Source of the DNA: Cryomorphaceae bacterium | GTDB taxonomy: Bacteria > Bacteroidota > Bacteroidia > Flavobacteriales_D > Parvicellaceae | DNA length: 64,000 nucleotides | Reading direction: 5' to 3' | Assembly: GCA_905182525.1 (NCBI GenBank) | Contig: CAJJBV010000003.1 | Span: 310,001-374,000 of the forward strand | Shown here: positions 1 through 33,208 of the stretch, in pieces | How positions within the stretch are numbered: position 1 is the first letter of the stretch | Layout of the letters: the number at the start of each line of letters is the position of its first letter | Notes under the pieces: model-generated | What the model was told of the DNA's origin: nothing | Database searches by the model: none | Seen by the model: the letters and a program-made list of their open reading frames with translations, nothing else | Position numbers and translations under genes: made by a program

Positions 1-1050
1 TACAGTAACATCAACTTGATCTGTTGCAGTACAACCGTTTGCATCTGTTCCAGTCACGGTGTAAGTTGCAGTTGCAGTTGGGGTGAAAGCAGTTCCATCA
101 GTAATACCATTATCCCAAGCATAAGTTATTGCTCCAGAACCTGAAAGTGTTACAGTCCCTCCATCACAAACAGCTTGATCAGCTCCAGCTGATACTGTTG
201 GTAATGAGTTAACAGTAACGACAATTTGATCTGTTGCAGTACAATTATTAGCATCTGTTCCGGTAACGGTGTAAGTTCCACTTGCCGTTGGAGTAAAAGC
301 AGAACCGTCAGTTACACCATTGTCCCAAGCATAAGTTATTGCTCCAGAACCTGAAAGTGTTACAGTCCCTCCATCACAAACAGTAACATCAGCTCCAGCT
401 GATACTGTTGGTAAAGTATTTACAGTAACATCAACTTGATCAGTTCCAATACAACCATTTCCATCTGTTCCAGTAACTGTGTAAGTTGCTGTTGCAGTTG
501 GGGTGAAAGCAGTTCCGTCAGTAACTGCATTATCCCAAGCATAAGTAGATGCTCCAGAACCTGAAAGTGTTACAGCACCACCATCACAAACAGTAACATC
601 AGCTCCAGCTGATACTGTTGGTAAAGTATTTATAGTAATATCAACATTGTCTGTTCCTATACAACCATTTGCATCTGTTCCAGTAACTGTGTAAGTAGTA
701 GTTGCAGTTGGGGTGAAAGCAGAACCGTCAGTAACACCATTGTCCCAAGCATAAGTTGTTGCTCCAGAACCTGAAAGCGTTACAGCACCACCATCACAAA
801 CAGCTTGATCAGCTCCAGCTGATACTGTTGGTAATGAGTTAACAGTAACGACAATTTGATCTGTATTAGAACAACCATTTCCATCTGTTCCAGTAACTGT
901 GTAAGTAGCAGTTGCAGTTGGGGTGAAAGAAGTTCCGTTTGTAACACTATTATCCCAAACATAAGTTGTTGCTCCTGATCCTGAAAGTGTTACAGAAGAT
1001 CCTGCACATACAGTTTGATCAGATCCAGCATCAACTGCAGCAGAACCTAT
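1..1050 (-). repeat. Five tandem 210-bp repeats encoding 70-residue Ig-like domains
   Basis: The repeat boundaries recur exactly every 210 bases (near 211, 421, 631 and 841), so each unit is 70 codons and keeps the reading frame. Copies differ at scattered positions: a GTAATGAGTT linker alternates with GTAAAGTATT, and Q-A, V-T or Q-T follows the conserved AD. They are therefore older and more diverged than the 1692-bp units upstream. The array continues off the left edge. Confidence 0.85.
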
Positions 1051-19753: not shown

Positions 19754-21211
19754 ATGAAAAAAGCAATTTTTTTTTGTTTGTTGATATTGGCAATATTTAT
19801 TGGGGCCACACTAAATCAAAAGCCCGAGAGGCCAAATGTTTTATTGTTTTACATGGACGACTTGCGTCCAGAGTTGGGAAGTTTTGGAGCGCTTCAAATT
19901 CACTCTCCTAATATTGATTCGTTTGCTAAAAAGGGAATGAAATTTACAAATGCCTATTGTAATATCCCTGTCTGCGGAGCATCTCGCGCAAGTATGCTTA
20001 CTGGAATGTTACCAACCAAAAATAGATTTTTGAATTACAATACCTTTGTTGAAAAAGAAGCTCAAGAGGCAATTACCCTACCAGAGTTATTTAAGACCAA
20101 TGGCTACACCACAATTTCTAATGGGAAAATTTATCATCACTTAGATGATAGAAAAAGTGATTGGGATGAAATTTGGCGTCCCTATGCGTTTGATGAAAAT
20201 AGAGATGATTTAGCTCCTACCGACTATTGGCAATCTCTTTGGAAAGACTATCAAAATAAAGACAATCGCTCTAGATATCAAATAACGGACAATGGCCCCG
20301 CTTATGAATGCAGTGAAGTTTCAGATTACACATACATTGATGGTTTATTAACCCTGAAAGTTATACGGGATATTGAAAAACTAAAAAAAGCTAATAAGCC
20401 ATTTTTTTTAACTGCTGGTTTTATCTCAAATCATTTGCCTTTTAATGCACCAAAAAAGTACTGGAATTTATATAAAAGGGATTTGATTGAGCAGCCAGAA
20501 AATTTTAATTATATTCCTAAGGATGCACCCAATATGAGTATTAGTAATTGGCCTGAGATGCGAGCCTATTCAAATATCCCAAAGCAGGGGCAGGTTTCTG
20601 ACAGTGTAGCGATTGATTTAATACATGGGTATTACGCAACGGTTTCTTATGTTGACGCATTAATTGGAAAAATTTTAGATGAATTAAAAGAACAAAAATT
20701 AGATCACAACACCATTGTCATTTTAGTATCGGACCATGGATATAACTTACAAGAACATACCCAATGGGCAAAGTTTACTAGCTACAATACTTCGACCCAA
20801 GTTCCGCTTGTTATTTATAATCCATTTTCCAAAGCTAAAGGAACAACAAACGCTTTGACCTCATTAGTAGATATTTATCCTACGATAGCTGAATTATGTG
20901 GTCTAGGAGTTCCTGAAAATCAATTAGACGGGACTAGTTTGGCACCTGTTTTAAACAACCCAAATTTGGGTGGAAAAAGTCATGTTTTCATTAAAAAAAC
21001 TAACGCATTTACCATAAAAACAAGGGACTTTAGTTATACAGAATTTATAAAACCTAAAGACAATACAATCATCGATAAAATGCTTTATGATCACAGAATA
21101 TCTAAAGTAGAAAATATAAATATTGCTAATAAAATGGAATTTGAAAATACGGTTTCAGAGTTAAATTATATTCTTCATTCAGAATATCAGAAAAATATTA
21201 TGGGCTTCTAA
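19754..21211 (+). CDS. Secreted sulfatase, iduronate-2-sulfatase-like
   Basis: This 485-residue protein has an N-terminal signal or anchor helix (residues 2-20) and a type I sulfatase domain. Metal-binding Asp35-Asp36 lie in LLFYMDDLRP. Cys74 sits in CGASRASMLTG and is the residue that would be converted to formylglycine (core C-x-A/P-x-R). VSDHGYNLQEH supplies further metal ligands, and DGTSLAPVL lies near the end. The layout with GLGVPENQLDG and VDIYPTIAELCGL matches the iduronate-2-sulfatase-like branch. The usual role is desulfation of algal or animal polysaccharides. No other polysaccharide-utilisation genes are adjacent. A formylglycine-generating enzyme must be encoded elsewhere. No T9SS domain is present. 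Confidence 0.85.
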   Translation: MKKAIFFCLLILAIFIGATLNQKPERPNVLLFYMDDLRPELGSFGALQIHSPNIDSFAKKGMKFTNAYCNIPVCGASRASMLTGMLPTKNRFLNYNTFVEKEAQEAITLPELFKTNGYTTISNGKIYHHLDDRKSDWDEIWRPYAFDENRDDLAPTDYWQSLWKDYQNKDNRSRYQITDNGPAYECSEVSDYTYIDGLLTLKVIRDIEKLKKANKPFFLTAGFISNHLPFNAPKKYWNLYKRDLIEQPENFNYIPKDAPNMSISNWPEMRAYSNIPKQGQVSDSVAIDLIHGYYATVSYVDALIGKILDELKEQKLDHNTIVILVSDHGYNLQEHTQWAKFTSYNTSTQVPLVIYNPFSKAKGTTNALTSLVDIYPTIAELCGLGVPENQLDGTSLAPVLNNPNLGGKSHVFIKKTNAFTIKTRDFSYTEFIKPKDNTIIDKMLYDHRISKVENINIANKMEFENTVSELNYILHSEYQKNIMGF

Positions 21212-21226
21212 TTTGATAATAAAAAG

Positions 21227-21259
21227 TTGACTTAGTTAAGAAAGCAAAGGGAGGTTAGT
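21227..21259 (-). repeat. Conserved 3'-tail element, copy 1
   Basis: Plus-strand TTGACTTAGTTAAGAAAG then CAAAGGGAGGTTAGT. It lies directly after the stop of the sorting-domain gene ending at 21255. Five further copies lie downstream of other minus-strand genes up to 32335. Confidence 0.75.
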
Positions 21260-21506
21260 CCTTAATCACTTTCACTTCCTCAACTCTATCACCATAAGCA
21301 ACTTTAAGAAGATAAATTCCTCTTGCATAATCTTGTAAACTAATGGTAGTTTCATTGGTTGTTTGAAGTCTATTTCCAATTAAATCATAAACCTCGGTTT
21401 GGATGTTTCCATTGAAGTTTTCTATGCTAATTGTAATATTTTCATTTGTTGGGTTTGGGTAAATATTTACAAGCTTGATTTTCTCGTTAATAGAAACCTG
21501 GTCCAC
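21255..21506 (-). CDS. T9SS sorting domain of the PA/hydrolase/PKD protein (frameshifted segment)
   Basis: This segment encodes a type A T9SS C-terminal domain: VNIYPNPTNENITISIEN, VYDLIGNRLQTTNE, YARGIYLLKVAYGDRVEEV, and a terminal KVIKD. It overlaps the preceding segment (21487-21999) in another frame. A one-base shift around 21490-21510 separates them, and the apparent ATG at 21506 is internal. The DNA is very close to the sorting domain at about 29635-29850, which suggests recent duplication or gene conversion. It is the end of the gene that starts at 26198. Confidence 0.75.
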   Translation of the reverse strand: MDQVSINEKIKLVNIYPNPTNENITISIENFNGNIQTEVYDLIGNRLQTTNETTISLQDYARGIYLLKVAYGDRVEEVKVIKD

Positions 21507-22257
21507 CTGAGCATGATATTAAATTGTCAAATTTCAAAGTATCGTATCCACAACCATTAGTGATATCTTCCGCAATTAATGAAACATCATATATTCCATT
21601 GGACATATACTGATAATCGAATGAAGGAATATTGGTTTGTCCAAGAGTACCATCTCCAAAATCCCATGTAAAGTCGTAATTAGATATATTGGGAGTTGTA
21701 TTAGTAAACGTTACATTAAAAGGAGGGGAAGTAAGAACAGTAGGTGAAGCTATGAAGTTAGTAAGAAACTCAGAAATTGTTAAAACAAGAGTATCTACAC
21801 AATTACTACTTGAATCAGAAGTGTATGTTCCACTTGAATTATAAGTTGTTCCGTTCCATAAAAAGCTGTCACAAGAAGATTGAACAGTTGTAGTACCGAC
21901 AGTAGTAATAGTTAAATCCAAAGAATCTATTTGTGGGCAACCTGCAGCATTTAAGTTAGTATCAACATATATTCCAGTAGAGACATAAAGACTGCCCATT
22001 GAAAAGATAACTCCCGCAAGAAGAAATTGTAAGTAAACTAGAAGTAGATGAGCTTACTGTTAAGTTTAAGGTAACTATACTATCACATCCAGCAGCGTTT
22101 GTTAAAGTATCAGTAGCTGTATTATTTGAAGAGTATAAGTATTGCCATCAATCCAGTTAAGCTGTACCATCGCAAAGTGTTTGATTATCAATACTAGAAG
22201 AAGTTTGATTTATTGTTAAATTAAGAGTAACAACACTATCACACCCTGCAGCATTGG
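21487..22257 (-). CDS. PKD domain and GCDS-type repeats of the PA/hydrolase/PKD protein (frameshifted segment)
   Basis: The frame from 21999 to 21487 carries the repeat CDSFLWNGTTYNSSGTYT and then a PKD domain (FTWDFGDGTLGQT, GIYDVSLIAEDITNGCG). Between 22000 and 22257 the translation continues only by changing frame. It gives further CGSFTWI/GCDSVVTLNLTI repeats, including one interrupted by a stop. Several one-base indels are needed here. This is interior to the gene running 26198 to 21255. Confidence 0.6.
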
Positions 22258-24140
22258 TTAAAGTATCGGTAGCTGTATTGTTTGAAGCGTTGTAAGTATT
22301 TCCATTAATCCAAGTGAAACTTCCACATGCATTTTGTATGTCAGTACCAGTATTATTACAATTTGTATTTCCACCATTAGTAATATATAATCTTGTTTAT
22401 ACATAGTATCTGTACATCCGGTATTGATGTCTTGAGCAATAAGGGTTACTGAATATAAACCATTGTAAAGAAAATCATGAAAACATTGGCTATTATTACT
22501 TTGTAAAATTGTACCGTCTCCAAAATCCCAAGTAAAATTATAATTAGACATATTGGGAGTAGAATTGGTAAACTGGGCTACAAATGGAAGGGATGTAAAT
22601 TGCAACTGAGAAGCGGCAAAGTCTGTACCAAACTGGTTAGGATTAATAGTTAAATTAAGTGTAATAACACTATCACAACCAGAAAGTGACAGAACAGTAT
22701 CTAAGTACGAACCTGTTAAATTTAACAGATTACCGTTCCATAGATATACACTATCACAAGAAGTCTGATTATCTTGAATAATTGGGGGGTTGTTTATCGT
22801 TAAATCTAGTGTTACAACACTATCACACCCTGCAGCATTTGTTAAGGTATAGGTAGCTGTATTGTTAGAGGCGTTGTAAGTATTTCCATCTATCCAAGTA
22901 AAACTTCCACATGTATTTTGTATGTCAGTACCAGTATTATTACAATTTATAAACGGTAAAGCAAAAGCATTTACAAGACGTGGGCAGAAAAACCCAAGAG
23001 TAGAATCCATATAAGCAGTAGCTTTTTGAATACTCATATCTGGATTTCCAATAGCTGTATTAGCAAGAATTGCTGCACCATCCTTTCCTAAAGCAGTAGC
23101 TCCGGCTACAGTAGTTGCAGAATCCCAAAATTCCCAAGGAGCACTTTCATTTGTATTTACAGTTACAAAAGGAAATAAGTTTTCTACTGGAGAACCAATA
23201 ACTGTTAACCCTTTATCTAAGGTTCCAACTAAGCTATTTGATGCATTTTGGGCAGCTGTTGTGTAAGCATCACTAATTCCTGAAATACTATCGTTATTTC
23301 CTAGCATATTGGCTTTTGAAATTACATCATAAGAACCACTAATTTCTGTAGTAATTGGAATTAAACCTTGGGCTGTTGTTACATTTACATCTCCTGTAGT
23401 ATATATAGCAACATTATCAGTTCTACAATGAACCGCTGCAATTGGCACTTCACCTTGAGATAACCAATCGAGGGCACCCATTCCACCGCCCATGCTGCAA
23501 ACCATCTGAATTTCACTAGAATACCCAGCATTATTTTCCATGTTTTGGCTTGGATGACCACCATATCCATCCCAATCACCTATTGAATCTAAATCAAAAA
23601 GCATATCTCCTTGTGGAGATAAAAATTTGGGAAGTCGTATGTCTGAAGTATCAGAAATTGACGCATAACCTAAAGCAACCCATCCCCCAGAACCTTGACC
23701 TATTAGAGCTATTTTATTAGTATCAATTCTGAAAGTATTACTACTGTCTTTAACGTCTCTATAGAAATATCTAACTGCAGCTTTAGTGTCTTGTATCGCT
23801 CGGTATACTGCTTTGGTCCAAGCTTATAGAAGTTTGCTGAAAGACTTCCGCCTGCACCACCATTCCATCCTAGCCTATATTCTACATTTGCCACAGCATA
23901 ACCTCTTTTTGCGAAACGCTCACACATCGTTATCAGTTGCATAATCGTTTCTACTTCCTGTTGGATTATTATTTAAAAATATTGGAGCAAAAGTACCAGT
24001 ATGTAAGTAAACTAATAATGGTCTTTCTGTTAACGAATCACCATTAGGTTCATAAAAGTCAAAGGCTAAAGACGGAGCTAAGGGATGAGCTCCTGTTGGT
24101 AAAGTTGGACCTAAACCAACCGCACTTAATACAACAGATC
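22258..24140 (-). CDS. Alpha/beta-hydrolase and PKD part of the PA/hydrolase/PKD protein (frameshifted)
   Basis: Across three frames this region encodes a carboxylesterase-like domain. Its elements are RPLLVYLHTGTFAPIF, CERFAKRGYAVANVEYRLGW, RIDTNKIALIGQGSGGWVAL (nucleophile elbow GQGSGG), a cap with NAGYSSEIQMVCSMGGG, and IAAVHCRTDNVAIY. Two GCDS-type repeats and a PKD domain (FTWDFGDGTILQ, NGLYSVTLIAQDINTGC) follow. Frame changes fall near 24125, 23942, 23790 and 22390. No real start exists here, since the domain continues from the gene starting at 26198. The most likely product is a secreted esterase-like enzyme held on the cell surface by T9SS. Confidence 0.65.
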
Positions 24141-24143
24141 ATA

Positions 24144-26198
24144 TTAGTAGCATATTGTACATCGTCTAGTTACTTTAACGCTGTCAAAGACCTCATCAAT
24201 ATATCTTATTTGTCCAGCAGGTGGAGGTGATGGTGGATTTTGCCCACCATAAAAGTGAAATAATTTACTAGTAGTAAAAGTATCACAGATAGCAATGCCA
24301 AATAAGGAGACACAACCAACAAACTTAAATTCTACAGAGTCTGAACTATTAATAGAATTATTATAGACTCCACTTATATTTATACAATCAACTCCACCCA
24401 AGGAAAGATTACTATTGTTAGTTGAATAATTTAATCCTGCAGGTAAGTTTGTAACACTAACTAATTTTATAGAATCTATAACATACCCTGAGTAATTTGG
24501 GTCGTAAAACCCAGCATCGGTAGAAGTTGTTATAGTATAAGATTTTGAACTTGGAACATTCAAATAAAATGTATCGTTAACAGTGCTGTAAATTCCAAAT
24601 GGACTACCTAAATAAGAATTATCTGGAACACATTGTCCTGTAGGTGGTGGTGACGGAACAGTACTATCTCCAAATTTTAATCCAATTGATGGTGCATCTG
24701 CAGAACTCCATCCAGTATACCAAGTTCCTTGTGTTCCGTTAAAAGGAGGAATACCGTCAATATTTAATCTTCCAGAACCAAAATCTGGATTATACACTGA
24801 ATTGCTCCCATAATCCAAGTAATTATCATATCCAAATGATATATCTAGAGCTGTTCCTCCTTGGTATTCAATACATACTAAATATCTTTGAAAATCTAGA
24901 AACTGAAATGGCGCTGGTTGTCCATTCCCATCAGCAAATTCATGATATACAATTTTTTCAGATAAGCTATCATTAGCAAAGAAATAATCATTAATTAAAA
25001 CTGGATTTAATTGATTAACTGTATAGTCTTCCCAACCACCAGATTGTATGTCGTTCCATTCATAAATAGAAACATTAAAATATTCACTTGACAATGGGGT
25101 GCTATCAGTCCCAACTGAAAAGTATACTCCCTCTGCAATTGAGCTAACTGGATAATTTTCTTCGTATAAATGCATGCAAGAACTTATTGCTAATGTATAG
25201 ATACGGGGGTAAAAATTAGCAATTATCTCACCCGTACTTTGGTCTGTTCTTGCTCTAGACAACACATCATTGGTAACTGAAAAAGAGGAGGTTATATTAT
25301 TATCAGAACTATCCTGATCAGTCTTATTTAAAATAGATAAATTATAGTTAATTGTATAATCACCGGTTGGTAAATTAGTCTCTGTATATGGAATGTACGT
25401 ATAGTCAGTATCTTGTGCGGCAGGAAGTAAGCCAAAAGTCAAAGTTGTATCATAAGAATACCCATTTGGCCCTGTAATAGTTTGATTTAAAACCGGAATA
25501 TTATCGTCAGATCCATAATTAGTAATTGTTAACCCTAAATCAAAATTATTATTACCATTTTGAACAAATGTTGTTGGCACTGAGCCATACTTGGAAATAT
25601 TAGCAACATCTTTTGAAGAGCCTAAGTCGTTTGTACTAGATCCAGTTTTGTTCCCAATGAAAACTTCAACGGGTCCGTTAGCCATTTCACTTAAAAGTAG
25701 TTGCCCATCTGTTGTAGAAATCATGACAACAGGAATATTAATAAATAGTCCTGAATCTCCACCAGCCATTCCAACAGGATCTCCAGAGTGATTTATTATT
25801 ACAATAGCAACAGCGCCATTATTTTCTGCTAAAGCAGCTTTCAAACCAAATGAACAACTCCCTCGCCAAACAACTGCAATTTTACCAGCTAAAGATGGTT
25901 GAGAGTGCGCTCCACCATTAGCATCTAAACAACCTTCGTTGGCTAATGGATGAGGTACTGTGTAAGCAGGATTATTCCCTGACCAGCTATTATCCACAAC
26001 AAGCTCTAATGTGTCTTGAATAAAAGTATTTGGTAAATTAAAATCTGGAATTGTTGTAGACCACGATCCAGTAGGCTCAGCCCATTCAAAAACAAAACTG
26101 TTTCCACTTATTGAGGAAGGTGAAACACCTTCAAAAGAAACCTGAGCATTTATTAATTGAGAAAAGGATATTAAAATTAGCAATAAAAAATTCTTCAT
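24144..26198 (-). CDS. Secreted PA-domain protein, N-terminal part of a PA/hydrolase/PKD/T9SS fusion
   Basis: The real start is ATG at 26198, with a signal peptide (MKNFLLLILISFSQLINAQ). Residues about 60-190 form a protease-associated (PA) domain (HPLANEGCLDANGG, GKIAVVWRGSCSFGLKA, AIVIINHSGDPVG, IPVVMISTTDGQLLL). CARDB-like and jelly-roll-like beta modules follow. Two proline hinges, PPSPPPTGQC and PPSPPPAGQI, bound a beta domain. The frame breaks near 24150 (VKVTRRCTICY). If one base is removed it continues VTDDVQYATN into the hydrolase domain, so the whole gene spans 26198 to 21255, about 1640 residues. PA domains usually accompany peptidases, but no peptidase active site is visible. Confidence 0.7.
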   Translation of the reverse strand: MKNFLLLILISFSQLINAQVSFEGVSPSSISGNSFVFEWAEPTGSWSTTIPDFNLPNTFIQDTLELVVDNSWSGNNPAYTVPHPLANEGCLDANGGAHSQPSLAGKIAVVWRGSCSFGLKAALAENNGAVAIVIINHSGDPVGMAGGDSGLFINIPVVMISTTDGQLLLSEMANGPVEVFIGNKTGSSTNDLGSSKDVANISKYGSVPTTFVQNGNNNFDLGLTITNYGSDDNIPVLNQTITGPNGYSYDTTLTFGLLPAAQDTDYTYIPYTETNLPTGDYTINYNLSILNKTDQDSSDNNITSSFSVTNDVLSRARTDQSTGEIIANFYPRIYTLAISSCMHLYEENYPVSSIAEGVYFSVGTDSTPLSSEYFNVSIYEWNDIQSGGWEDYTVNQLNPVLINDYFFANDSLSEKIVYHEFADGNGQPAPFQFLDFQRYLVCIEYQGGTALDISFGYDNYLDYGSNSVYNPDFGSGRLNIDGIPPFNGTQGTWYTGWSSADAPSIGLKFGDSTVPSPPPTGQCVPDNSYLGSPFGIYSTVNDTFYLNVPSSKSYTITTSTDAGFYDPNYSGYVIDSIKLVSVTNLPAGLNYSTNNSNLSLGGVDCINISGVYNNSINSSDSVEFKFVGCVSLFGIAICDTFTTSKLFHFYGGQNPPSPPPAGQIRYIDEVFDSVKVTRRCTICY

Positions 26199-26221
26199 TT
26201 TATAAGTTTTTAAAAATCAAT

Positions 26222-26258
26222 TTAAGAAAAAAGCAAATCCTAATTAAAAATAATAGGT
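26222..26258 (-). terminator. Hairpin plus T-run, candidate terminator
   Basis: Read on the minus strand, CCTATTA and TAATTAGG pair with one bulge and are followed by ATTTGCTTTTTTC. It lies just upstream of the gene starting at 26198 and would end transcripts arriving from 27072-26407. Confidence 0.45.
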
Positions 26259-26281
26259 GTGATTAGGTAAATTAACCTATT
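26252..26281. repeat. Palindromic intergenic element AATAGGT-N16-ACCTATT
   Basis: A 30-base element with perfect seven-base inverted arms, the same length and arms as the copy at 17721-17750. It partly overlaps the adjacent terminator-like hairpin. Confidence 0.6.
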
Positions 26282-26311
26282 TAAACCCTAGAAGCTTAAG
26301 GCTTATTTATG

Positions 26312-26347
26312 TTAAGAAAAAAGCAAATCCTATTTTAAGATAATAGG
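26312..26347 (-). terminator. Rho-independent terminator after the beta-barrel gene
   Basis: On the minus strand CCTATT-ATCTTAA-AATAGG is a perfect six-pair stem, followed by ATTTGCTTTTTTCTTAAC. It comes about 60 bases after the stop at 26407. It is nearly identical to the hairpin at 28449-28485. Confidence 0.6.
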
Positions 26348-26361
26348 TGTTATTACGTTAA

Positions 26362-26394
26362 TTGACTTAGTTAAGAAAGCAAAGGGAGGTTAGT
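26362..26394 (-). repeat. Conserved 3'-tail element, copy 2
   Basis: The same TTGACTTAGTTAAGAAAG-CAAAGGGAGGTTAGT sequence as at 21227. Here it is followed by the DNA of a sorting-domain end (VEEVKVIKD codons) that the resident gene reads in another frame. Confidence 0.75.
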
Positions 26395-26406
26395 CCTTAA
26401 TTACTT

Positions 26407-27072
26407 TTACTTCTTCAACTCAGTAAATGACCATACTGAAAATTTAGTAAATTGTATTCTAAGACCAATAAGGTTTTCAATTATTGGTAGATTATCATTT
26501 AATGTAATTATACGATTTGCAAAATCCATTCTTGTAAACAAATAAAAATGAATGTCTTTCTTCATAACGCTTTTATGACCACCTGACTTTGAAATTTTAA
26601 AAGACAATCCTATTTCAATTGGCAATAAATATCTTCTGTGAAAATCAAATTCATTATTTATTAAACTTAATTCAGGAATTAAAGAAAATTCAACCCCTGT
26701 GAATAATTTTCTACATTCTGAATGTTGAGATTTTTCCAATTTTATAGAAAACAGATGGATGTCATATTGAATAGGAAAAGCTAAAATATGTTCTGTTACA
26801 GTTTCTGTAATACTACCAATAACTGGAAGTTTTACGTTTTGATAATTATATTGAAATCTTATAGAAATAGGCAAAAATGAAGAGAGTTTTTTCCCAAAAC
26901 CAATTCCAAAGCTATTTCCATTGATTAAATCATAAGCCGAAAATACTTTTGATTTACTTATCAAACTACCAAACTCAGCAGAAATAAGATAGTTTTTTTT
27001 TCCTCTCTCATATTGTTGAGAATATGTTCTTAAAAAAAAAGTAAAAAAACACAGAATAATTAAGACCCTCAT
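26407..27072 (-). CDS. Outer-membrane beta-barrel-like protein
   Basis: A signal peptide (MRVLIILCFFTFFLRTYSQ) is followed by about 200 residues of alternating hydrophobic and polar strands. Examples are NYLISAEFGSLIS, SFGIGFGKKLSSFLPISIRF, FPIQYDIHLFSIKLE, RRYLLPIEIGLSFKIS and DIHFYLFTRMDFANRI. The pattern suggests an eight-stranded outer-membrane barrel of the OmpA/PorT-like size class. The last residues (SFTELKK, stop) are encoded by DNA that in another frame spells the common sorting-domain end VEEVKVIKD. The gene's 3' end has therefore been joined to a foreign tail, or a base has shifted. Function is unknown. Confidence 0.6.
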   Translation of the reverse strand: MRVLIILCFFTFFLRTYSQQYERGKKNYLISAEFGSLISKSKVFSAYDLINGNSFGIGFGKKLSSFLPISIRFQYNYQNVKLPVIGSITETVTEHILAFPIQYDIHLFSIKLEKSQHSECRKLFTGVEFSLIPELSLINNEFDFHRRYLLPIEIGLSFKISKSGGHKSVMKKDIHFYLFTRMDFANRIITLNDNLPIIENLIGLRIQFTKFSVWSFTELKK

Positions 27073-27186
27073 AACTATTTATACTTTAAAACGAAGCTTT
27101 TATTAGCGCAATATGAACGTTCATATAACAACCAAAGATAAAATATTGAGTATTCTGTTCTATAATTTAAATCAAATAACAAATCA

Positions 27187-27672
27187 TCATCTTTCTTCGC
27201 TTAAAGATCCGTTTTTTTCTAAGTATAAATCAATAAATTCTGCAAGATAAAATCCTTTTTCAGATTTAAATATAATTAATGCATCATTTTTTATTGTAAA
27301 AATACTTTGTTCAATTTGATGTTCTTCGTATGTAAATTTTGAAACTTTATTATTGTATCCTTTATTAATTAATTCTTCGTTAATTTTTCGGTATGGTTTG
27401 CTGTAAAGTGATATAAACTCTGAAGTTAAAGGAAGCCTTGTGAAATGGGAATTTCTTGTAATCATAGGCCTAAACCCAGTAAATTTGTTTACTGAATCAT
27501 AGTTCATTTCTTTGTTATTTAAAATGTTCTTTGCTAACATTTCATAACTCCCACCCATTGCTACTCCCTCCTTTGCAGTCATCTCTTGAACGTTGCCTAA
27601 AATATTTAAAAGACTATATTTTCCATATTGTGTTATAAGAGTCAATAGCGACGGGACCATTGAGTTTTCCAT
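27187..27672 (-). CDS. SUMF1-fold (FGE-sulfatase domain) protein, C-terminal segment
   Basis: This segment carries the conserved end of the fold: QYGKYSLLNILGNVQEMTAK, VAMGGSYE and FTGFRPMI. These correspond to the GNVwEMt, GGS and GFR blocks of the formylglycine-generating-enzyme domain. The catalytic cysteines of true FGE are absent, so a structural or binding role is more likely. The preceding segments are 27614-27991 and 28003-28425; the three are one gene broken by shifts. The 60 or so residues after GFR are an unrelated tail. Confidence 0.6.
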   Translation of the reverse strand: MENSMVPSLLTLITQYGKYSLLNILGNVQEMTAKEGVAMGGSYEMLAKNILNNKEMNYDSVNKFTGFRPMITRNSHFTRLPLTSEFISLYSKPYRKINEELINKGYNNKVSKFTYEEHQIEQSIFTIKNDALIIFKSEKGFYLAEFIDLYLEKNGSLSEER

Positions 27673-27991
27673 ATTGATTTATTTTACCTAACGAACCATT
27701 ACAAGTGTCTAATAGTTGAAAATTAAAAATTGGACAACCTTTTTTATTAACAGAATCTCCAACTATATAATATTCATTCTTTTTGTCTACAGCAGATTTA
27801 AAATATTCTTTATGTTCATTAATAAGATCACTGTATATTGATGTATATGGAAGATACCCTTGGTATTTGTAATAACCTTTTGGACCATTGTAAGAGTTGC
27901 TTTTAACCCCATCAGAATAATCATTAATTGTTTTAGCATACCAAACAGAATATTCAATTGCCCTATCATAGTCTATTCCAGTAATTGGCAT
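27614..27991 (-). CDS. SUMF1-fold protein, middle segment
   Basis: The translation MPITGIDYDRAIEYSVWYAK is the central 'P(V)xxVsw.dA..Y..W' block of the SUMF1/GldK-type fold. It is followed by YYKYQGYLPYTSIYSDLINE. The upstream frame (TETELEKKDSILNFLR) continues directly into it, so its ATG is internal. The frame to the next segment changes near 27640. It is part of the gene starting at 28425. Confidence 0.6.
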   Translation of the reverse strand: MPITGIDYDRAIEYSVWYAKTINDYSDGVKSNSYNGPKGYYKYQGYLPYTSIYSDLINEHKEYFKSAVDKKNEYYIVGDSVNKKGCPIFNFQLLDTCNGSLGKINQYGKLNGPVAIDSYNTIWKI

Positions 27992-28002
27992 TCTTAAAAA
28001 GT

Positions 28003-28425
28003 TTAGGATGCTATCTTTTTTTTCAAGCTCTGTTTCTGTGAGATATAAATCAAAATCTTTAAGTGAATAATGTCTTGAAGAATAGTAACTAATCCTTCTG
28101 AACTTCTTTTTAAAATTTCAAAAAACCAATAATATGAAGTATCAATTTCTTGTGGTATTCCTGATGAAAATTCCAATAAAGTTTTATTGTCTTTTGGAAG
28201 GAAAAGTAAATCAAGTAAATCTTTTTGTTTCTCTGAATGGTTGCCGTCGTATTGACTATCCCAAATATCAAGCAAAAAGCTAAAATAGTCAGCAATAGAA
28301 ACTTCAGATTGTTTGATAAAAATTGAATCATTAAATTTAACACATCCCCAAGGAATATAAGTTGGTTATTGAGTAAAACCAATTATTGGAAATGTCAATA
28401 AGACAAATACTAAAAGTTTCTTCAT
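28003..28425 (-). pseudogene. SUMF1-fold protein, N-terminal segment with an in-frame stop after the signal peptide
   Basis: The ATG at 28425 gives a clean signal peptide, MKKLLVFVLLTFPIIGFTQ, and then TAA at 28366-28368. The same frame continues PTYIPWGCVKFNDSIFIKQS and SEVSIADYFSFLLDIWD, as expected for the start of a mature SUMF1-fold protein of the GldK type. A shift near 28085 then moves to the frame of SLKDFDLYLTETELEKK. One stop and at least two shifts in one short gene could be real decay, but the quality of the region is poor. Leader DNA before the ATG is nearly identical to that of the gene at 26198. Confidence 0.55.
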
Positions 28426-28448
28426 TTTGTAAGTTTTAAAACATCAAG

Positions 28449-28485
28449 TTAAGAAAAAAGCAAATCCTATTTTAAAGATAATAGG
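28449..28485 (-). terminator. Rho-independent terminator after the endonuclease gene
   Basis: On the minus strand CCTATT-ATCTTTAA-AATAGG forms a six-pair stem followed by ATTTGCTTTTTTCTTAAC. It lies about 45 bases after the stop at 28528 and just before the leader of the gene at 28425. Confidence 0.6.
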
Positions 28486-28499
28486 TGTTATTACGTTAA

Positions 28500-28532
28500 T
28501 TGACTTAGTTAAGAAAGCAAAGGGAGGTTAGT
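28500..28532 (-). repeat. Conserved 3'-tail element, copy 3
   Basis: The same 33-base element as at 21227, placed directly at the stop of the endonuclease gene and followed by the terminator hairpin. Confidence 0.75.
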
Positions 28533-29010
28533 CTTTAATCACTTTTACTTCCTCAACTCTATCTCCATAAGTAACTTTAAGTGAATATATTCCACTTGGA
28601 TAGTCAGCTAAGCTGAGATTAGTGTTATTAGTGGTTTCTAAGAGCTTTCCAGTGAAGTCATAGAGTTCTGCTTCAAAGCTTCCGTTATAGTTCTCTATTT
28701 CTATTTGTATGAGGTTGTTAGTTGGGTTAGGGTAAATTTTAAAATTAGAAGATGATTCTTCATTAGAAATACCAACGTAATTGCCCCATATTAAACCCAC
28801 ATATTCTGGATGGTCAATAAATGGATTTCTATTATTCTGGTAATTGTAATAGATTATATCGTTTCTGTTACGTTCCCAGTCGTCCACAGAATCTTCATTA
28901 TGCCATTGAATTAATGTGTTTAATTTTGCATAAACAGGGTCAGAAGTGTTATTATCTACTGGCAAATAATCAATTAATTCTAAATCTGGCTCTGTCCTTC
29001 CCTCCCTCAT
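28528..29010 (-). CDS. Secreted endonuclease I, C-terminal segment with T9SS sorting domain
   Basis: This is the downstream part of the nuclease gene starting at 29563: TEPDLELIDYLPV, LNTLIQWHNEDSVDDWERNR, NRNPFIDHPEYVGLIWG. This is the usual C-terminal end of endonuclease I, whose last helix binds DNA. A T9SS domain follows (FKIYPNPTNNLIQIEIEN, LYDFTGKLLETTNN, DYPSGIYSLKV, EEVKVIKD). It overlaps 28970-29563 in another frame. One extra G in the GGGAGGG run near 29000 explains the break, after which ATRYEG continues REGRTEPD. Confidence 0.8.
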   Translation of the reverse strand: MREGRTEPDLELIDYLPVDNNTSDPVYAKLNTLIQWHNEDSVDDWERNRNDIIYYNYQNNRNPFIDHPEYVGLIWGNYVGISNEESSSNFKIYPNPTNNLIQIEIENYNGSFEAELYDFTGKLLETTNNTNLSLADYPSGIYSLKVTYGDRVEEVKVIKD

Positions 29011-29563
29011 ATCTTGTAGCCATATAGAAAATCATTCTTGCAACATCACCTTTAACTTCATCTCTTGGTTGCCAAACCCAATTAGTTGAACTTGTAAAAC
29101 ATCCAGTATAGTTTCCATTATCTAAATATGGATTAGAGCAAGTGTCAAACCAACGATTATTCTTAGCTGAGTTGACAGATGGGTCTGCGGGTCTTAAATG
29201 ATGAGCATCTGTTCCCGCTCCTCTTGATGTTCCAAATGCACCATGTGATTTAGACCAAATATGTTCTCTGCTCCACCCACTTCCACTGTTCCATTCTTGG
29301 TCAGCATCAACAGACCATCCAGTATAAAATAGAATTACCTTATTAGAGTCGTTAGGGTCTTTATCAGTTTGTTTTAATATATCCCATAAGTCGGTAGTTC
29401 TTGATGTGTATGGAAATTCAGTATGTCCTTTAATAATGTTATGTAAGGCGACTTTTAGAGAGTTACCTATTAACGTGTCCGTACCATTATAATAACCATT
29501 AGGTATTTGACTGTAAATTAAACTTGAAAATATTTGAATAACTGATATTAAAAGTATTCTCAT
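28970..29563 (-). CDS. Secreted endonuclease I (HNH/His-Me finger nuclease), catalytic segment
   Basis: A signal peptide (MRILLISVIQIFSSLIYSQ) precedes an endonuclease I domain with NGYYNGTD, the catalytic block WSREHIWSKSHGAFGT, the metal and substrate block GTDAHHLRPADPSVNS, and NNRWFD. These match the Vvn/EndA-type secreted nucleases, which cut DNA or RNA non-specifically. With the sorting domain in the next segment the enzyme should be secreted by T9SS, probably to obtain phosphate and nucleosides. The frame breaks at 28970 because of a one-base shift near 29000, probably a sequencing error in a G-rich run. Confidence 0.85.
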   Translation of the reverse strand: MRILLISVIQIFSSLIYSQIPNGYYNGTDTLIGNSLKVALHNIIKGHTEFPYTSRTTDLWDILKQTDKDPNDSNKVILFYTGWSVDADQEWNSGSGWSREHIWSKSHGAFGTSRGAGTDAHHLRPADPSVNSAKNNRWFDTCSNPYLDNGNYTGCFTSSTNWVWQPRDEVKGDVARMIFYMATRYEGGKDRARFRIN

Positions 29564-29597
29564 AACATGAATATTTCTGAACTAAAGTAAGTAAAAG

Positions 29598-29630
29598 TTG
29601 ACTTAGTTAAGAAAGCAAAGGGAGGTTAGT
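29598..29630 (-). repeat. Conserved 3'-tail element, copy 4
   Basis: The same 33-base element as at 21227, directly after the sorting domain of the second propeller protein. Confidence 0.75.
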
Positions 29631-29634
29631 CCTT

Positions 29635-31186
29635 AATCACTTTCACTTCTTCAACTTATCTCCATAAGCAACTTTTAGAAGATAAATTCCTCTTGCATAA
29701 TCTCTGTAAACTAATGGTAGTTTCATTGGTGGTTTGAAGTCTATGTCCAATTAAATCATAAACCTCAGTTTGGATGTTTCCATTAAAGTTATTCTATGCT
29801 AATTGTAATGTTTTCATTAGTTGGGTTTGGGTAGATATTTATTTGGTTAGAAACTTCTATAATAGAAACACTTGGTCCTCCAGTACAGTAAATATTATCT
29901 GTTTTTAACATGGTATCTGTACAGCCAGTAAGTATATTCTCTGCTATCAAAGTAACATCATATAATCCATTATATTGGTATTCATGAAAAACACTAGCAT
30001 TGTTGCTTTGCAATGTTAGTCCATCACCAAAATCCCATGTGAAGTTACAATCTGAAAGATTAGGAGTTGAATTAGAAAAATCTACTAAAAAGGGAGCTGA
30101 AGTAAATGAAGAGACATTAGATGTGAAGTCAGGTGTTGGGATATTATTTATTGTTAAATCTAAAACAATTACACTATCACAACCTACAGAGTTTAACACT
30201 GGACTTATATATAGAGCTGCAGTATCATTACTCAGTGTGTAAGTATTTCCATTAATCCAAGTGTAACTTCCACATGCAGTCAAATTATCATTACGATATG
30301 ATTTATTATTTAGAGTTAAGTGTAGAGTTACTAAACTGTCACAACCATTGGAATTTGTCAGATAAATAGAAGGAATATTTCCTGGAAGTGGAGCTGAGGT
30401 GTACGTTTGGTTATTTATCCAGGTATAAGAATCACAAGCAACAATGCTATCAATACCTACCAGCAAAGGGGTAATAGTTAAGTTAAGATTTACAATACTA
30501 TCACAACCAGCTGCATTTGTTAATGTATAACTTGCAGCGCTGTCGCTTGATGAATAATAAGTAACACCATTTATCCAAGTATAACAACCTCCTGCACTTA
30601 TGCTTTCAGTACTAAATGTATCTAAACACCATCTATATATCCTTACATGACCAGAACTGGGTCCATTTCCATCATTTCCATATGCTCCAATAGCCAATCT
30701 ATCTCCAGCTGCATTAATTGAAACAGATGTTCCACTATAGTCACCAGCTGCTTCACCATCAATATCTGCTCCTAATTGAGTCCAAGCAGTTCCATTCCAT
30801 TCATAAATTCTAACATGACCAGCATTTCCATCATTTGAACGTGCTCCAATAGCCAATCTGTCTCCAGCAGCATTTATTGAAACAGACCATCCACTATAGT
30901 CATCAGCTGCTTCTCCATCAATATCTGCTCCTAATTGAGTCCAAGCAGTTCCATTCCAATCATATATTCTCACATGACCGGCATCTATTCCATTTCCATC
31001 ATTTCTAACTGCTCCAATAGCTAATCTATCTCCAGCAGCATTTATTGAAACAGAACATCCACTATAGTCACCAGCTGCTTCTCCATCAATATCTGCTCCT
31101 AATTGAGTCCAAGCAGTTCCATTCCAATCATATATTCTCACATGACCGGCATCTATTCCATTTCCATCATTTCTAGACTGCTCCAA
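29635..31186 (-). CDS. Seven-bladed propeller protein, C-terminal segment with PKD and T9SS domains
   Basis: This segment contains blades 5-7 (each QLGADIDGEA, DYSG, SVSINAAGDRLAIGA, HVRIY, WNGTAW). Three CxSYTWI/GCDSxVxLxLTI repeats follow, then a PKD domain (FTWDFGDGLTLQS, NGLYDVTLIAENILTGC) and a T9SS domain beginning NIYPNPTNENITISIE. The annotated frame stops at 29789. Conserved DNA continues to the KVIKD end at about 29635 but needs three one-base corrections within 150 bases. It belongs with 31173-31853; the ATG at 31186 is internal. Confidence 0.75.
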
Positions 31187-31853
31187 TAGCTACTCTATCT
31201 CCATTAGCATTTATTGAAACAGAATATCCACTATAGTCATAAGCTGCCTCACCATCAATATCCTGACCTAATTGTATCCAAGCAGTTCCATTCCAGTCGT
31301 AAATTCTTACATGACCAGCATTACTTCCATTTCCATTATTGTATTCTGCTCCAATAGCTAATCTATCTCCAGCTGCATTCATAGAAACAGAACCTCCACT
31401 CAAATCACTAGCTGCTTCACCATCTATGTCCTGACCTATTTGTGTCCAAGTAGTTCCATTCCATTGGTATATTCTCACATGACCAGAACTGGCTCCATTT
31501 CCATCATTTCCATATGCTCCAATAGCTACTCTATCTCCATCAGCATTAATTGAAACAGAATATCCACTTTTGTCACCAGTTGCTTCTCCGTCAATATCTG
31601 CTCCTAATTGAGTCCAAGCAGTTCCATTCCAATCATATATTCTCACATGACCAGAACTGGCTCCATTTCCATCATTAAAATATGCTCCAATAGCCAATCT
31701 ATCTCCAGCAGCATTTATTGAAACAGAACCTCCACTATTATCATTAGGTGCTTCTCCGTCAATATCTGCTCCTAATTGTCCAAAGTAAGCTTGGGATACA
31801 ATTGCAACAGAAATAAATAAGAACGGTAATAATAATAATTTTTTCATTTTCAA
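31173..31853 (-). CDS. Seven-bladed propeller protein, N-terminal segment
   Basis: The signal peptide (MKMKKLLLLPFLFISVAIVSQ) is followed at once by four FG-GAP-like blades: QLGADIDGEAPNDNSG, QLGADIDGEATGDKSG, QIGQDIDGEAASDLSG and QLGQDIDGEAAYDYSG. Three more blades lie across a one-base shift near 31180, making exactly seven, a complete propeller. The blade type is the same as in the giant protein at 1-10171, but with one propeller instead of five. It is probably a T9SS-displayed surface-binding protein. The leader shares the CAATTATA-TTTTCAT region with the Kazal lipoprotein gene. Confidence 0.8.
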   Translation of the reverse strand: MKMKKLLLLPFLFISVAIVSQAYFGQLGADIDGEAPNDNSGGSVSINAAGDRLAIGAYFNDGNGASSGHVRIYDWNGTAWTQLGADIDGEATGDKSGYSVSINADGDRVAIGAYGNDGNGASSGHVRIYQWNGTTWTQIGQDIDGEAASDLSGGSVSMNAAGDRLAIGAEYNNGNGSNAGHVRIYDWNGTAWIQLGQDIDGEAAYDYSGYSVSINANGDRVAIGAV

Positions 31854-31910
31854 TTATAGGGTATTACGATAGATACTGCAATACGCTAAAGAGCGTAATT
31901 TAAAGTGTTA

Positions 31911-31947
31911 ATCAAAAAAGCAAATCCTATTTAAAAATATTAGGTGT
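31911..31947 (-). terminator. Candidate terminator after the Kazal lipoprotein gene
   Basis: On the minus strand CCTAATATTTTTAAATAGG can form a weak imperfect stem, followed by ATTTGCTTTTTTGATT. It is the third relative of the hairpins at 28449 and 26312, with a poorer stem. Confidence 0.4.
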
Positions 31948-31958
31948 TATTACGTTAA

Positions 31959-31991
31959 TTGACTTAGTTAAGAAAGCAAAGGGAGGTTAGT
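31959..31991 (-). repeat. Conserved 3'-tail element, copy 5
   Basis: The same 33-base element as at 21227. Here it follows a gene that has no sorting domain (Kazal lipoprotein), so the element is not just the end of the sorting-domain coding DNA. Confidence 0.75.
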
Positions 31992-31993
31992 TG

Positions 31994-32242
31994 TCAATCA
32001 CAGCATTCTCCATCAACATACGAACTTACTCCTCCCCTTGTTGTGGCTACACAAGAATTAGAATAAGTTACCCCATTACAGCCACAGACAGGTTCGTACA
32101 CAGTTATACACATTCCACCGCTAACAATTAATGTCGAATCTATACAACTGCTGTTTCCTAATTCGGGAATGTTTGCACAACTCTTTTTATCACAAGAAAA
32201 TAAAATTAGCAATAGTAAAGTGGGAATTAATAAGTGTTTCAT
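31994..32242 (-). CDS. Lipoprotein with Kazal-type protease-inhibitor domain
   Basis: I place the start at ATG 32242 (MKHLLIPTLLLLILFSCDKK), which gives a proper lipoprotein signal with lipobox LFSC; the longer frame to 32275 adds an unlikely leader. The mature 60 residues hold a Kazal domain: CIDSTLIVSGGMCITVYEPV, CGCNGVTYSNSCVA, GVSSYVDGEC. The spacing of the cysteines and the VCGCNGVTYSN core are diagnostic. Kazal domains inhibit serine proteases by substrate-like binding. On a bacterial lipoprotein the role may be defence against external or self-secreted proteases (inference). Confidence 0.85.
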   Translation of the reverse strand: MKHLLIPTLLLLILFSCDKKSCANIPELGNSSCIDSTLIVSGGMCITVYEPVCGCNGVTYSNSCVATTRGGVSSYVDGECCD

Positions 32243-32308
32243 TTTTTCAATTATAAACGTTTTAATAGATAACAAATGAGGGGTGAGTATGAAGACTATC
32301 TAAAAGGA

Positions 32309-32335
32309 TTAGTTAAGAAAGCAAAGGGAGCTTAG
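32309..32335 (-). repeat. Conserved 3'-tail element, copy 6 (shorter)
   Basis: TTAGTTAAGAAAGCAAAGGG then AGCTTAG, matching the core of the other five copies with one change (GAGG to GAGC). It lies after the lipoprotein gene ending at 32359. The surrounding DNA differs. Confidence 0.6.
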
Positions 32336-32358: not shown

Positions 32359-32715
32359 TTAATTTTCACCAGAAAAAATATATTGATTGTTTAAGTTCTC
32401 ATAGTTTACTAATGATAAAGATAAACCAGTTGATGTCTCTTCAATTTCTAAGTTTACGGAATCACCATTATGGAAGTATGTGACAGAATTAAAATATCTT
32501 TGTTTATCAATTTCTAATTCGTAGAGAGTAAAAAAGTTACTTTCTATAGATATCCTTTTATTAGATATTTCTGAAATTATAATATTTGCATTACTTGATA
32601 TAATAGAGTCATTAATTGTCATTTGCCCAGTATAAGTTCCAGCAACTTTCTCTGAATATTTATTACAACTTCCCAATAAGACTATTGAAAACATAAGTAC
32701 TATAAGTTTTTTCAT
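32359..32715 (-). CDS. Hypothetical lipoprotein, 118 residues
   Basis: The signal MKKLIVLMFSIVLLGSCNKY has a lipobox LGSC. The mature part looks like a small beta-rich domain (AGTYTGQMTINDSIISS, NANIIISEISNKRISIES, VNLEIEETSTGLSLSLVNYE). This resembles the lipocalin-like small lipoproteins that begin with a VAGTYTG motif. No ligand can be named. Its leader (ACTTTAAAACTTACAAAATG) matches the leaders at 28425 and 26198. Confidence 0.6.
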   Translation of the reverse strand: MKKLIVLMFSIVLLGSCNKYSEKVAGTYTGQMTINDSIISSNANIIISEISNKRISIESNFFTLYELEIDKQRYFNSVTYFHNGDSVNLEIEETSTGLSLSLVNYENLNNQYIFSGEN

Positions 32716-32975: not shown

Positions 32976-32981
32976 CAGATG

Positions 32982-33055
32982 TGGAGAAGATGAGATTCGA
33001 ACTCACGACCTCTTGACTGCCAGTCAAGCGCTCTAGCCAACTGAGCTACATCCCC
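32982..33055 (-). tRNA. tRNA-Ala (GGC)
   Basis: The minus strand folds as a 74-nt tRNA. The acceptor begins GGGGATG and pairs with CTTCTCC (one U-U mismatch). The D-arm is GCTCAGTTGGCTAGAGC, and the anticodon stem CTTGA/TCAAG encloses CTGGCAG. The T-arm is GTGAG-TTCGAAT-CTCAT. The anticodon GGC lies at 33019-33021 and reads GCC (Ala). CCA is not encoded. Confidence 0.9.
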
Positions 33056-33120: not shown

Positions 33121-33134
33121 CTAAATTATCAATG

Positions 33135-33208
33135 TGGGCCCAGAAGGGCTCGAACCTTCGACCCCCTGATTATGAGTCAGGTGCTCTAACCAACTGAGCT
33201 ATGGGCCC
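33135..33208 (-). tRNA. tRNA with anticodon CAU (Met, or Ile2 after lysidine modification)
   Basis: This is a 74-nt tRNA on the minus strand. The acceptor starts GGGCCCA and pairs with TGGGCCC. The D-arm is GCTCAGTTGGTTAGAGC, and the anticodon stem CCTGA/TCAGG encloses CTCATAA. The T-arm contains GGTTCGAGCC. The anticodon CAT lies at 33172-33174. Sequence alone does not decide between elongator Met and the Ile2 tRNA; it is not an initiator type, since position 1 pairs. Confidence 0.85.

Follow-up and report, generated by a model that had tools for sequence, protein, structure and literature searches.

Why do unrelated genes for secreted proteins, lying one after another on the same strand of a small marine flavobacterial genome, end in the same short sequence? 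The question is raised by a stretch of 64,000 nucleotides (hereafter, the window) from a Cryomorphaceae bacterium (GCA_905182525.1, contig CAJJBV010000003.1, positions 310,001 to 374,000; G000:C3:310001-374000 in our numbering), whose genome spans 2.19 Mb in 6 contigs and is 96% complete. In the window, an array of such genes runs on the minus strand between a tRNA-Ala gene and a sulfatase-like gene. A preliminary description had proposed that new cargo genes are exchanged here by homologous recombination at repeated boundaries; we find the exchange strongly supported, but the homologous mechanism is not established. We consider it probable that the array belongs to a cassette system that resembles integrons, travels on integrative elements targeting tRNA genes, and is rearranged by site-specific exchange, the enzyme of which we have not found.

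A conserved site bounds the genes of the array

The sequence common to the array has a 20-mer core, TTAGTTAAGAAAGCAAAGGG, of which the window holds six exact copies, all on the minus strand (21232-21251, 26367-26386, 28505-28524, 29603-29622, 31964-31983, and 32309-32328). Shuffled sequence contains 0.02 copies on average, and none of 100 shuffles reaches six. The tail noticed in the preliminary description is therefore truly repeated across the array and its core is present in all six places, but the copy at 32309 has flanks that differ from the consensus. In gene sense, this consensus is CTAACCTCCCTTTGCTTTCTTAACTAAGTCAAC, about 35 bp long. Among 72 sites from 25 loci, aligned at up to three mismatches, the conserved stretch begins at about -7 and ends at about +28 relative to the core (CTAACCT CCCTTTGCTTTCTTAACTAA GTCAACTTT); as the core served as the search key, only the flanks give an unbiased measure of it. 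At the window sites 26367, 28505, and 31964, the similarity continues through ATTAACGTAATAACACCTA and an AATAGG up to the next gene, exactly as first reported. The leaders of the genes at 26198, 28425, and 32715, reported as matching, are indeed alike but not identical; their pattern (up to three mismatches) occurs at 13 places in the genome, 11 of them inside arrays, against 3 for the reversed control.

Searching the whole genome yielded 14 exact cores and one with two mismatches, 15 in all, and none for the reversed control. They form five groups, four of them beyond the array first described: the window (6 sites), C3 at ~282-283 kb (2), C4 at ~3 kb (1), C4 at 234-239 kb (4), and C6 at ~139 kb (2).

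How the site is placed relative to genes was judged on 62 sites from 27 loci across genomes (up to two mismatches; four more lie too close to a contig end). Of these, 26 follow a same-sense stop codon at no more than 80 bp and precede a start at no more than 260 bp; 14 have the stop alone, 15 the start alone, and 7 neither, the one-sided classes including mid-array sites whose neighbour is a short or broken gene, or which face a longer gap (for instance, window 29603 and L145 11623). Any stop within 80 bp upstream is found at 40 of the 62. Two of the sites are a single inverted duplicate: they lie at 345 and 17010 of L066, a single-cell contig with inverted duplicate ends that is likely an amplification chimera. 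Neighbouring sites less than 6 kb apart are co-oriented in 50 of 51 pairs, with a median unit of 711 bp (18 loci, up to four mismatches). In clear cases, a site closes an array and no same-sense gene lies past it (window 21232, L019 16864, L054 9410, L067 8577), or opens one and no gene lies before it (L016 7945, L019 12087). No stable hairpin appeared when ten strands of five sites were folded as DNA (z from -0.88 to 1.69).

At up to two mismatches, the site is present in 12 of 39 family genomes, the source genome included, and in 10 of the 11 genomes of the genus; the family outside the genus contributes 2 of 28, namely G025, from another genus, with nine copies, and G021, with one copy carrying two mismatches. 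A scan of 60 genomes gave the same 12 positives and none among the 23 genomes that represent the order's other families. G025 is a single-cell genome, which speaks against a binning artefact. An exact scan of a contig collection (with KG as the last bases of the 20-mer) returned 23 stretches: 17 titled Flavobacteriales, Crocinitomicaceae, or Bacteroidetes, five marine Alphaproteobacteria, and one Mycoplasma. The five alphaproteobacterial matches share an identical context, and we judge them to be one conserved place matched by chance. A 107-kb viral contig (L049) has one exact site (835-854), with partly matching flanks, adjoining a gene that looks methyltransferase-like by eye; it is suggestive of a phage vector of cassettes, or a chance match, and no more than that.

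Site-bounded units move between arrays and species

Homology between arrays often stops at the site. The nuclease unit of the window (28478-29627) recurs in the array of L021, on another contig of the same genome, with 99.2% identity over 1150 bp; the match begins at AACCTCCC, to the left of which the two loci are unrelated, and stops just past the next site. Taken as 28500-29633, the unit is also found in G009, 86% identical over 1141 bp and among different neighbours; in both genomes, the homology starts at offset -11 of the first site and reaches +24 of the following one. The G009 homologue is uninterrupted (344 amino acids). RNase R, our yardstick of divergence, is 80.8% identical between G000 and G009, so that this case alone is no proof of recent transfer. 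A 212-bp unit encoding a 36-residue hydrophobic peptide is clearer: G001 and G009 have it in copies that are 99% identical, running from offset 0 of a site to +30 of the next, and since RNase R of these genomes is 76.0% identical, recent transfer is the natural reading. G004 and G006, whose RNase R identity is 77.1%, share a hydrolase-like block of 1.19 kb at 90% identity. Across the genus, RNase R identity ranges from 73.5 to 94.6%.

The pattern holds in bulk. We collected 895 inter-genome blocks and kept 372, having dropped 523 that were leucine-rich or FG-GAP repeat proteins or shorter than 60 bp. The same site offset was found in both sequences at 234 of 744 block ends; when the sites were rotated, 300 trials averaged 0.03 such ends and never gave more than 1. 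The site itself is common to all loci, and the finding is therefore that homology halts there, not that it includes the site.

The cargo genes are mutually unrelated in family. Pfam families assigned to them comprise Kazal, FG-GAP/PKD, Endonuclease I, PA domain, Lcl C-terminal, DUF4177, AHSA1, and non-specific endonuclease, together with copper-binding and dioxygenase proteins that each carry a sorting domain, BD-FAE/alpha-beta hydrolase, other sorting-domain proteins, a PALP enzyme, and a sulfatase; 19 cargo proteins were scanned, and in one set of 10 of them 3 had no match. The preliminary description had named unrelated genes between the shared flanks, and for the window the Kazal, FG-GAP/PKD, Endonuclease_1, and PA-domain assignments bear it out, but the names SUMF1 and barrel were unconfirmed: the 221-residue "barrel" protein and the single scanned fragment of the "SUMF1" gene gave no Pfam match, nor did the lipoprotein of the array. 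A signal peptide or lipobox is found in 37 of the 53 first genes after a site by a crude rule, with no background rate alongside. Elsewhere in the source genome, a lone gene (L195 1124-1600; G000:C4 at ~36.7 kb) resembles the copper-protein cassette of L019 and has the long cassette leader; the 3 kb of L195 around it hold no site at up to five mismatches.

Relatives differ at the window locus as well. It is bordered on one side by a TonB receptor-like gene, tRNA-Met, and tRNA-Ala, and on the other by a gene for a 404-residue lipase-like protein and a gene that we call MEFKRF. In G003 and G001, the intervals between tRNA-Ala and MEFKRF (0.94 and 0.75 kb) contain no open reading frame of at least 80 codons and no site at up to five mismatches. 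At the tRNA-Ala locus, G009 has three different genes and two sites, one with five mismatches, and G002 one different gene and a site with four. The contig of G004 stops just past tRNA-Ala, and the other genus genomes have no tRNA-Ala within the stretch compared. The sulfatase beside the array was dropped as a synteny marker, its best matches in relatives being just 42-44% identical. Exchange of cargo is thus strongly supported, by site-bounded units that arrays and species share amid differing neighbours and by relatives whose locus has other genes or no array. The preliminary description had said that its idea would fall if the tail were confined to this locus with one gene order in all relatives, or were an ordinary genome-wide terminator unrelated to gene turnover; we found neither.

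The arrays lie at integration loci

A finding that goes beyond the preliminary description is that the arrays sit at tRNA, transfer-messenger RNA (tmRNA), and mnmE genes and, in relatives, are cargo of integrative elements. All five site groups of the source genome adjoin such classic integration loci: three tRNA genes, the tmRNA gene, and the 3' end of mnmE. The window array lies next to tRNA-Ala(ggc) (32981-33055, minus strand), whose 3' side faces the array and which is adjoined by tRNA-Met(cat) (33134-33208, minus strand). In L016, tRNA-Asn lies 111 bp before the first site; in L018, tRNA-Val ends at 8470 and the first leader occupies 8272-8317; in L021, a serine recombinase and small genes separate tmRNA from the first site; and in L019, the mnmE 3' end lies ~330 bp after the last site. 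Arrays of other genomes adjoin tRNA-Leu(gag) (G003, G007, G008), tRNA-Leu(taa) (G005, G025), tRNA-Arg (G007, G025), and tRNA-Gln (G009, G025). A site in G002 lies 67 bp from mnmE-like homology, with no second repeat within the 7.8 kb examined. Twelve of 25 site-bearing loci have no tRNA or tmRNA gene (L019, L050, L051, L053, L055-L058, L062, L063, L065, and L069), many of them being truncated by contig ends.

Two relatives preserve what look like whole elements, each with an integrase (Int) and bounded by direct repeats of the tRNA 3' end. The complete element of G009 (L061) runs from tRNA-Gln to a 14-bp repeat of the tRNA 3' end and encodes, in order, an excisionase-like helix-turn-helix protein, three small proteins, the site-bounded cassettes, one further open reading frame, and Int. 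G025 has a similar element at tRNA-Leu (L068), with Int, a 15-bp repeat, and a helix-turn-helix gene under the Pfam cut-off; the Int proteins of L068 and L062 are 35% identical. Two further elements have attachment-site (att) repeats and no Int. In G005 (L054), 49-nucleotide repeats (80% identical) lie 1.29 kb apart at tRNA-Leu(taa) and enclose two sites with a complete gene between them, and the tail of a second gene; TTGTGCCAAACTTTGTGCCAAAAC words are common to L054 and the Int-bearing L068, both at tRNA-Leu(taa). In the source genome (L019), 26-bp repeats (92%) lie 5.2 kb apart around the array, one of them at the mnmE end, and doubled AAGGTACAAAT words directly adjoin the first site. Both ends are visible in these four elements, which measure 1.3-9.7 kb.

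The window island has no such bounds. Neither exact matching nor blastn revealed att repeats around it: exact repeats of tRNA-Ala of at least 12 bases were confined to the neighbouring tRNA-Met, and blastn gave matches of 22 bp in a leader at ~26262 and of 31 bp, of low complexity, at 18661, besides two shorter matches. Among eight small backbone proteins besides Int and the excisionase, seven had no PHROG match and one had a weak match of unknown function, no systematic search for transfer or packaging genes having been made. Small backbone proteins in L061 (6390-6692) and L060 (8984-9361) start with a GRPKGSLNK motif, as do some terminase small subunits, and may conceivably serve in satellite packaging; the one PHROG match is weak and of unknown function.

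A model of cassette exchange

We propose that every array consists of mobile gene cassettes in series, each made of a short leader, usually one gene, and the ~35-bp site at its 3' side. Recombination of site with site would add, remove, and reorder cassettes while keeping a site on both sides of each, which is the pattern observed. As the att repeats of relatives show, the arrays are cargo of small integrative elements whose own Int targets the 3' ends of tRNA, tmRNA, and mnmE genes; in the source genome, the backbones of these elements would be lost or absent and mainly cargo left, which att repeats support for the mnmE element and which we infer for the others. The site recombinase is most likely of the tyrosine type, would come from elements or phages, and may exchange strands in the right-hand part of the site. 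It is also quite possible, and we say so tentatively, that this capture is independent of integrons altogether, using double-stranded sites of ~35 bp and a dedicated, unrecognised recombinase on phages or elements to swap the secretome gene by gene.

Variant sites give a hint of the exchange point. At core position 11, a change from C to A tracks the same upstream gene end (L019 13008 and L056 1099, by clustering; L063, by eye), and two sites with the same upstream gene diverge from position 21 on. In the 99% identical unit of G001 and G009, the left site differs at positions 7 and 20, and the DNA that follows is the same bar one T. Four sites with the same downstream DNA, three of them in G025, have unusual bases in common from about position 20 on. 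Pooled counts show pairs with the same upstream gene to be alike up to position 24, the counts being dominated by sorting-domain genes with a consensus site. This small sample, in which some variants may be plain mutations, favours an exchange at about positions 12-24, perhaps between 20 and 21.

Candidate enzymes were sought within and beyond the source genome. It has two PF00589 (tyrosine recombinase) genes, one above the cut-off for XerD and the other closest to XerC but below its cut-off; against the integron-integrase model TIGR02249, they score 151.7 and 99.5 (cut-off 265). PF00589 genes occur in 11 of 11 genus genomes and, judged from two that were scored, are mostly Xer-like. The Int of the elements was rejected as the site enzyme: at E <= 1e-10, it has a match in 10 of 39 family genomes and in 5 of the 12 with the site, and none in the source genome. 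Also set aside as the general site enzyme is the serine recombinase at the edge of the tmRNA array (L021 7119-8513), PF00239 being found in 1 of 11 genus genomes. Within L021 6604-8513, this large protein, encoded directly after the tmRNA gene by the sole PF00239 gene of the 11 genomes, may be the integrase of that island. A XerA/IntI-like recombinase beside an aroQ-like gene was rejected too; within the genus, it is confined to G003 (the query), G001 (85% identical), and G006 (a 77-residue fragment, 92%), and in the 40-genome search the source genome matched with just its two Xer genes. On the integron-integrase model, for which the cut-off is 265, the genes of G001 and G003 reach 215.9 and 218.7. 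Both lie with the aroQ-like gene at contig ends (L081 216-1138, in G003:C52; L082 90-964, in G001:C55) and are followed by a near-perfect hairpin, GGGGATAAACGTATTACGTTTATTCCCC or a one-base variant of it, with remoter relatives in many of the genomes searched; L081 and L082 are possibly a second system with hairpin sites.

Several observations weigh against the proposed cassette system. No recombinase besides Xer is common to the genus genomes, and no dedicated one tracks the site. Of the 12 genomes with the site, 5 have Int, one of them as a fragment, and its att repeats lie in the tRNA genes and not in the site. The estimate of the exchange point comes from few comparisons, not all of which agree. 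Upstream of the first gene of the window array (32359-32715), there is no site at up to four mismatches. The hydrolase-like block of G004 and G006 abuts a site in one genome, and in G006 starts 492 bp from the nearest one, so that it is not cleanly site-bounded. Finally, some units have sorting-domain or leader tracts longer than the site in common, from which it is clear that exchange also takes place outside the site.

The explanation that survives best beside our own, if rather unlikely, is homologous recombination or annealing at repeated boundaries (site, leader, and sorting-domain tracts) by no dedicated enzyme. Mosaic phages, with their short boundary sequences, offer an analogy. In two comparisons of unrelated genes of the source genome, tracts of 237 bp composed of sorting domain and site reach 94.5% and 97.0% identity (78-89% in other comparisons), and the gene at 26407 of the window has its stop within an out-of-frame remnant of a sorting-domain end, as expected of an exchange within such a tract; these two observations indicate that homologous exchange also occurs. 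The source genome's want of a dedicated recombinase and the site variants, which do not agree on a single exchange point, fit this explanation as well. However, many boundaries have little beyond the ~35-bp site in common, and yet homology halts there; the site is kept across a genus whose RNase R identity falls as low as 73.5%, which suggests a function beyond chance homology; and sites are present at array ends too. A conserved site of ~35 bp, its copies at array ends, and co-oriented units with a median of 0.7 kb fit site-specific exchange somewhat better, and we regard it as more likely than homologous exchange at the site, though not by far.

It is very improbable that the repeat is a regulatory element, such as the promoter of a secreted-protein regulon or a terminator, that spread with its genes. 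Where a start follows the site, its ATG lies 37-41 bp past the core in 14 of 41 cases, and the leader motif is concentrated in arrays (11 of 13, control 3), both of which would suit regulation. Yet sites occur with no same-sense gene after them (window 21232, L019 16864, and L067 8577) or no gene before them (the array starts of L016 and L019), the folded strands form no hairpin, homology blocks end at the site, and the position-11 variant tracks the upstream gene end.

Equally doubtful is the action of XerC/XerD on the site as on dif modules. XerC/D-like proteins are the only PF00589 tyrosine recombinases found in the source genome, the site is close to 28-35 bp in length, and it shares GTTAA with a dif arm. 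However, the dif-like word CYTATAATTAATATTATGTTAA, present in 7 of 14 genomes (the search pattern as such being no commoner than its reversed control), has by eye little in common with the site, which is not of the dif-like 11-6-11 kind, and the sites are in direct rather than alternating order. The idea of a degraded ordinary integron, an attC cluster without integrase, is scarcely credible: co-oriented 0.7-kb cassettes with a repeated site at gene 3' ends and the XerA/IntI-like recombinase of G001 and G003 recall one, but here the sequence of the site is kept and structure is absent, the reverse of attC as characterised in PMC9024848, the source genome has no integron integrase over the cut-off, and the G001/G003 gene is under it and has no source-genome counterpart beyond the Xer genes.

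The window array part by part

Read from the tRNA inwards, on the minus strand, the array begins with a gene for a lipoprotein-like protein of 118 residues (32359-32715), preceded by the leader CTTTAAAACTTACAAAATG. The site at 32309 separates it from the Kazal-domain gene (31994-32242; PF00050, 25.5 bits, cut-off 21), and that at 31964, with a long leader, separates the latter from an FG-GAP/PKD propeller gene with a sorting-domain end (29635-31853; PF14312, PF18911), read in the frames 31173-31853 and 29789-31186. The site at 29603 marks the boundary with the Endonuclease I gene (28528-29563), which also has a sorting-domain end and a second copy in G000:C6. The site at 28505 follows this nuclease cassette and leads by a long leader into a unit (26407-28425) composed of fragments of the so-called SUMF1 gene and the 221-residue gene, with no site at up to four mismatches between them. 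Beyond the site at 26367 and another long leader, to the gene at 26198, lies a stretch (21255-26198) with a PA-domain gene and then hydrolase-like, PKD, and sorting-domain frames. The last (3') site, at 21232, has a stop 3 bp upstream and no start within 260 bp; beyond it lies the convergent sulfatase-like gene (19754-21211).

Reading frames are disrupted in the cassette genes at 21255-23942, 27187-28382, 28528-29563, and 29789-31853. One frame break is common to the nuclease gene of the window and its copy at L021 10550-11566, and reflects either decay of long standing or a systematic error in the reads. Apart from the array, a repeat-rich region (L017 12900-17030, overlapping window positions 1-1029) contains long tandem repeats with a spacing of ~210 bp.

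Significance and comparison with known systems

If our proposal is true, a marine group of Bacteroidota would possess its own cassette-shuffling system, based on a site that is not attC and coupled to tRNA-targeting elements, which would account for the turnover of surface and secreted functions in small genomes. The short site would, moreover, serve as a marker with which to harvest cassette pools from metagenomes.

None of the papers listed by a literature search described such arrays in Bacteroidota, a weak negative as most subscription papers and preprints fall outside its coverage. The closest parallels come from four known systems. In XerCD/dif (pdif) modules, short sites of ~28 bp bound gene modules; the present units are likewise bounded by short sites, which are not dif-like and stand in direct order. 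Tycheposons, as presented in PMC10872708, also combine marine bacteria, a tRNA border, a tyrosine recombinase, and variable cargo; the likeness in border and recombinase type is seen in L061 and L068, and the cargo here, unlike theirs, consists of site-bounded cassettes. Islands related to Salmonella genomic island 1 (SGI1) insert at the 3' end of trmE (mnmE) according to PMC8409611, as the L019 element does, but L019 has no integrase and belongs to a different phylum; convergent use of one integration spot is the simplest reading.

Integrons and clusters of attC sites lacking integrases (CALIN) share with these arrays small co-oriented cassettes, a site at the 3' side, unrelated cargo, and whole cassettes common to different species. 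The integron core consensus is GTTRRRY/RYYYAAC; by eye, the nearest sequence in our site is GTTAAGA on the antisense strand, which does not fit in its final base or in its orientation. According to PMC9024848, known integrons are few in Bacteroidota, and attC sites vary in sequence while their structure is kept. The arrays described here differ in having a sequence-conserved site with no hairpin, no integron integrase in the source genome, several arrays per genome at tRNA, tmRNA, and mnmE genes, and leaders common to many cassettes. They work like an integron, and it is by their site and their enzyme that they fall outside the integrons.

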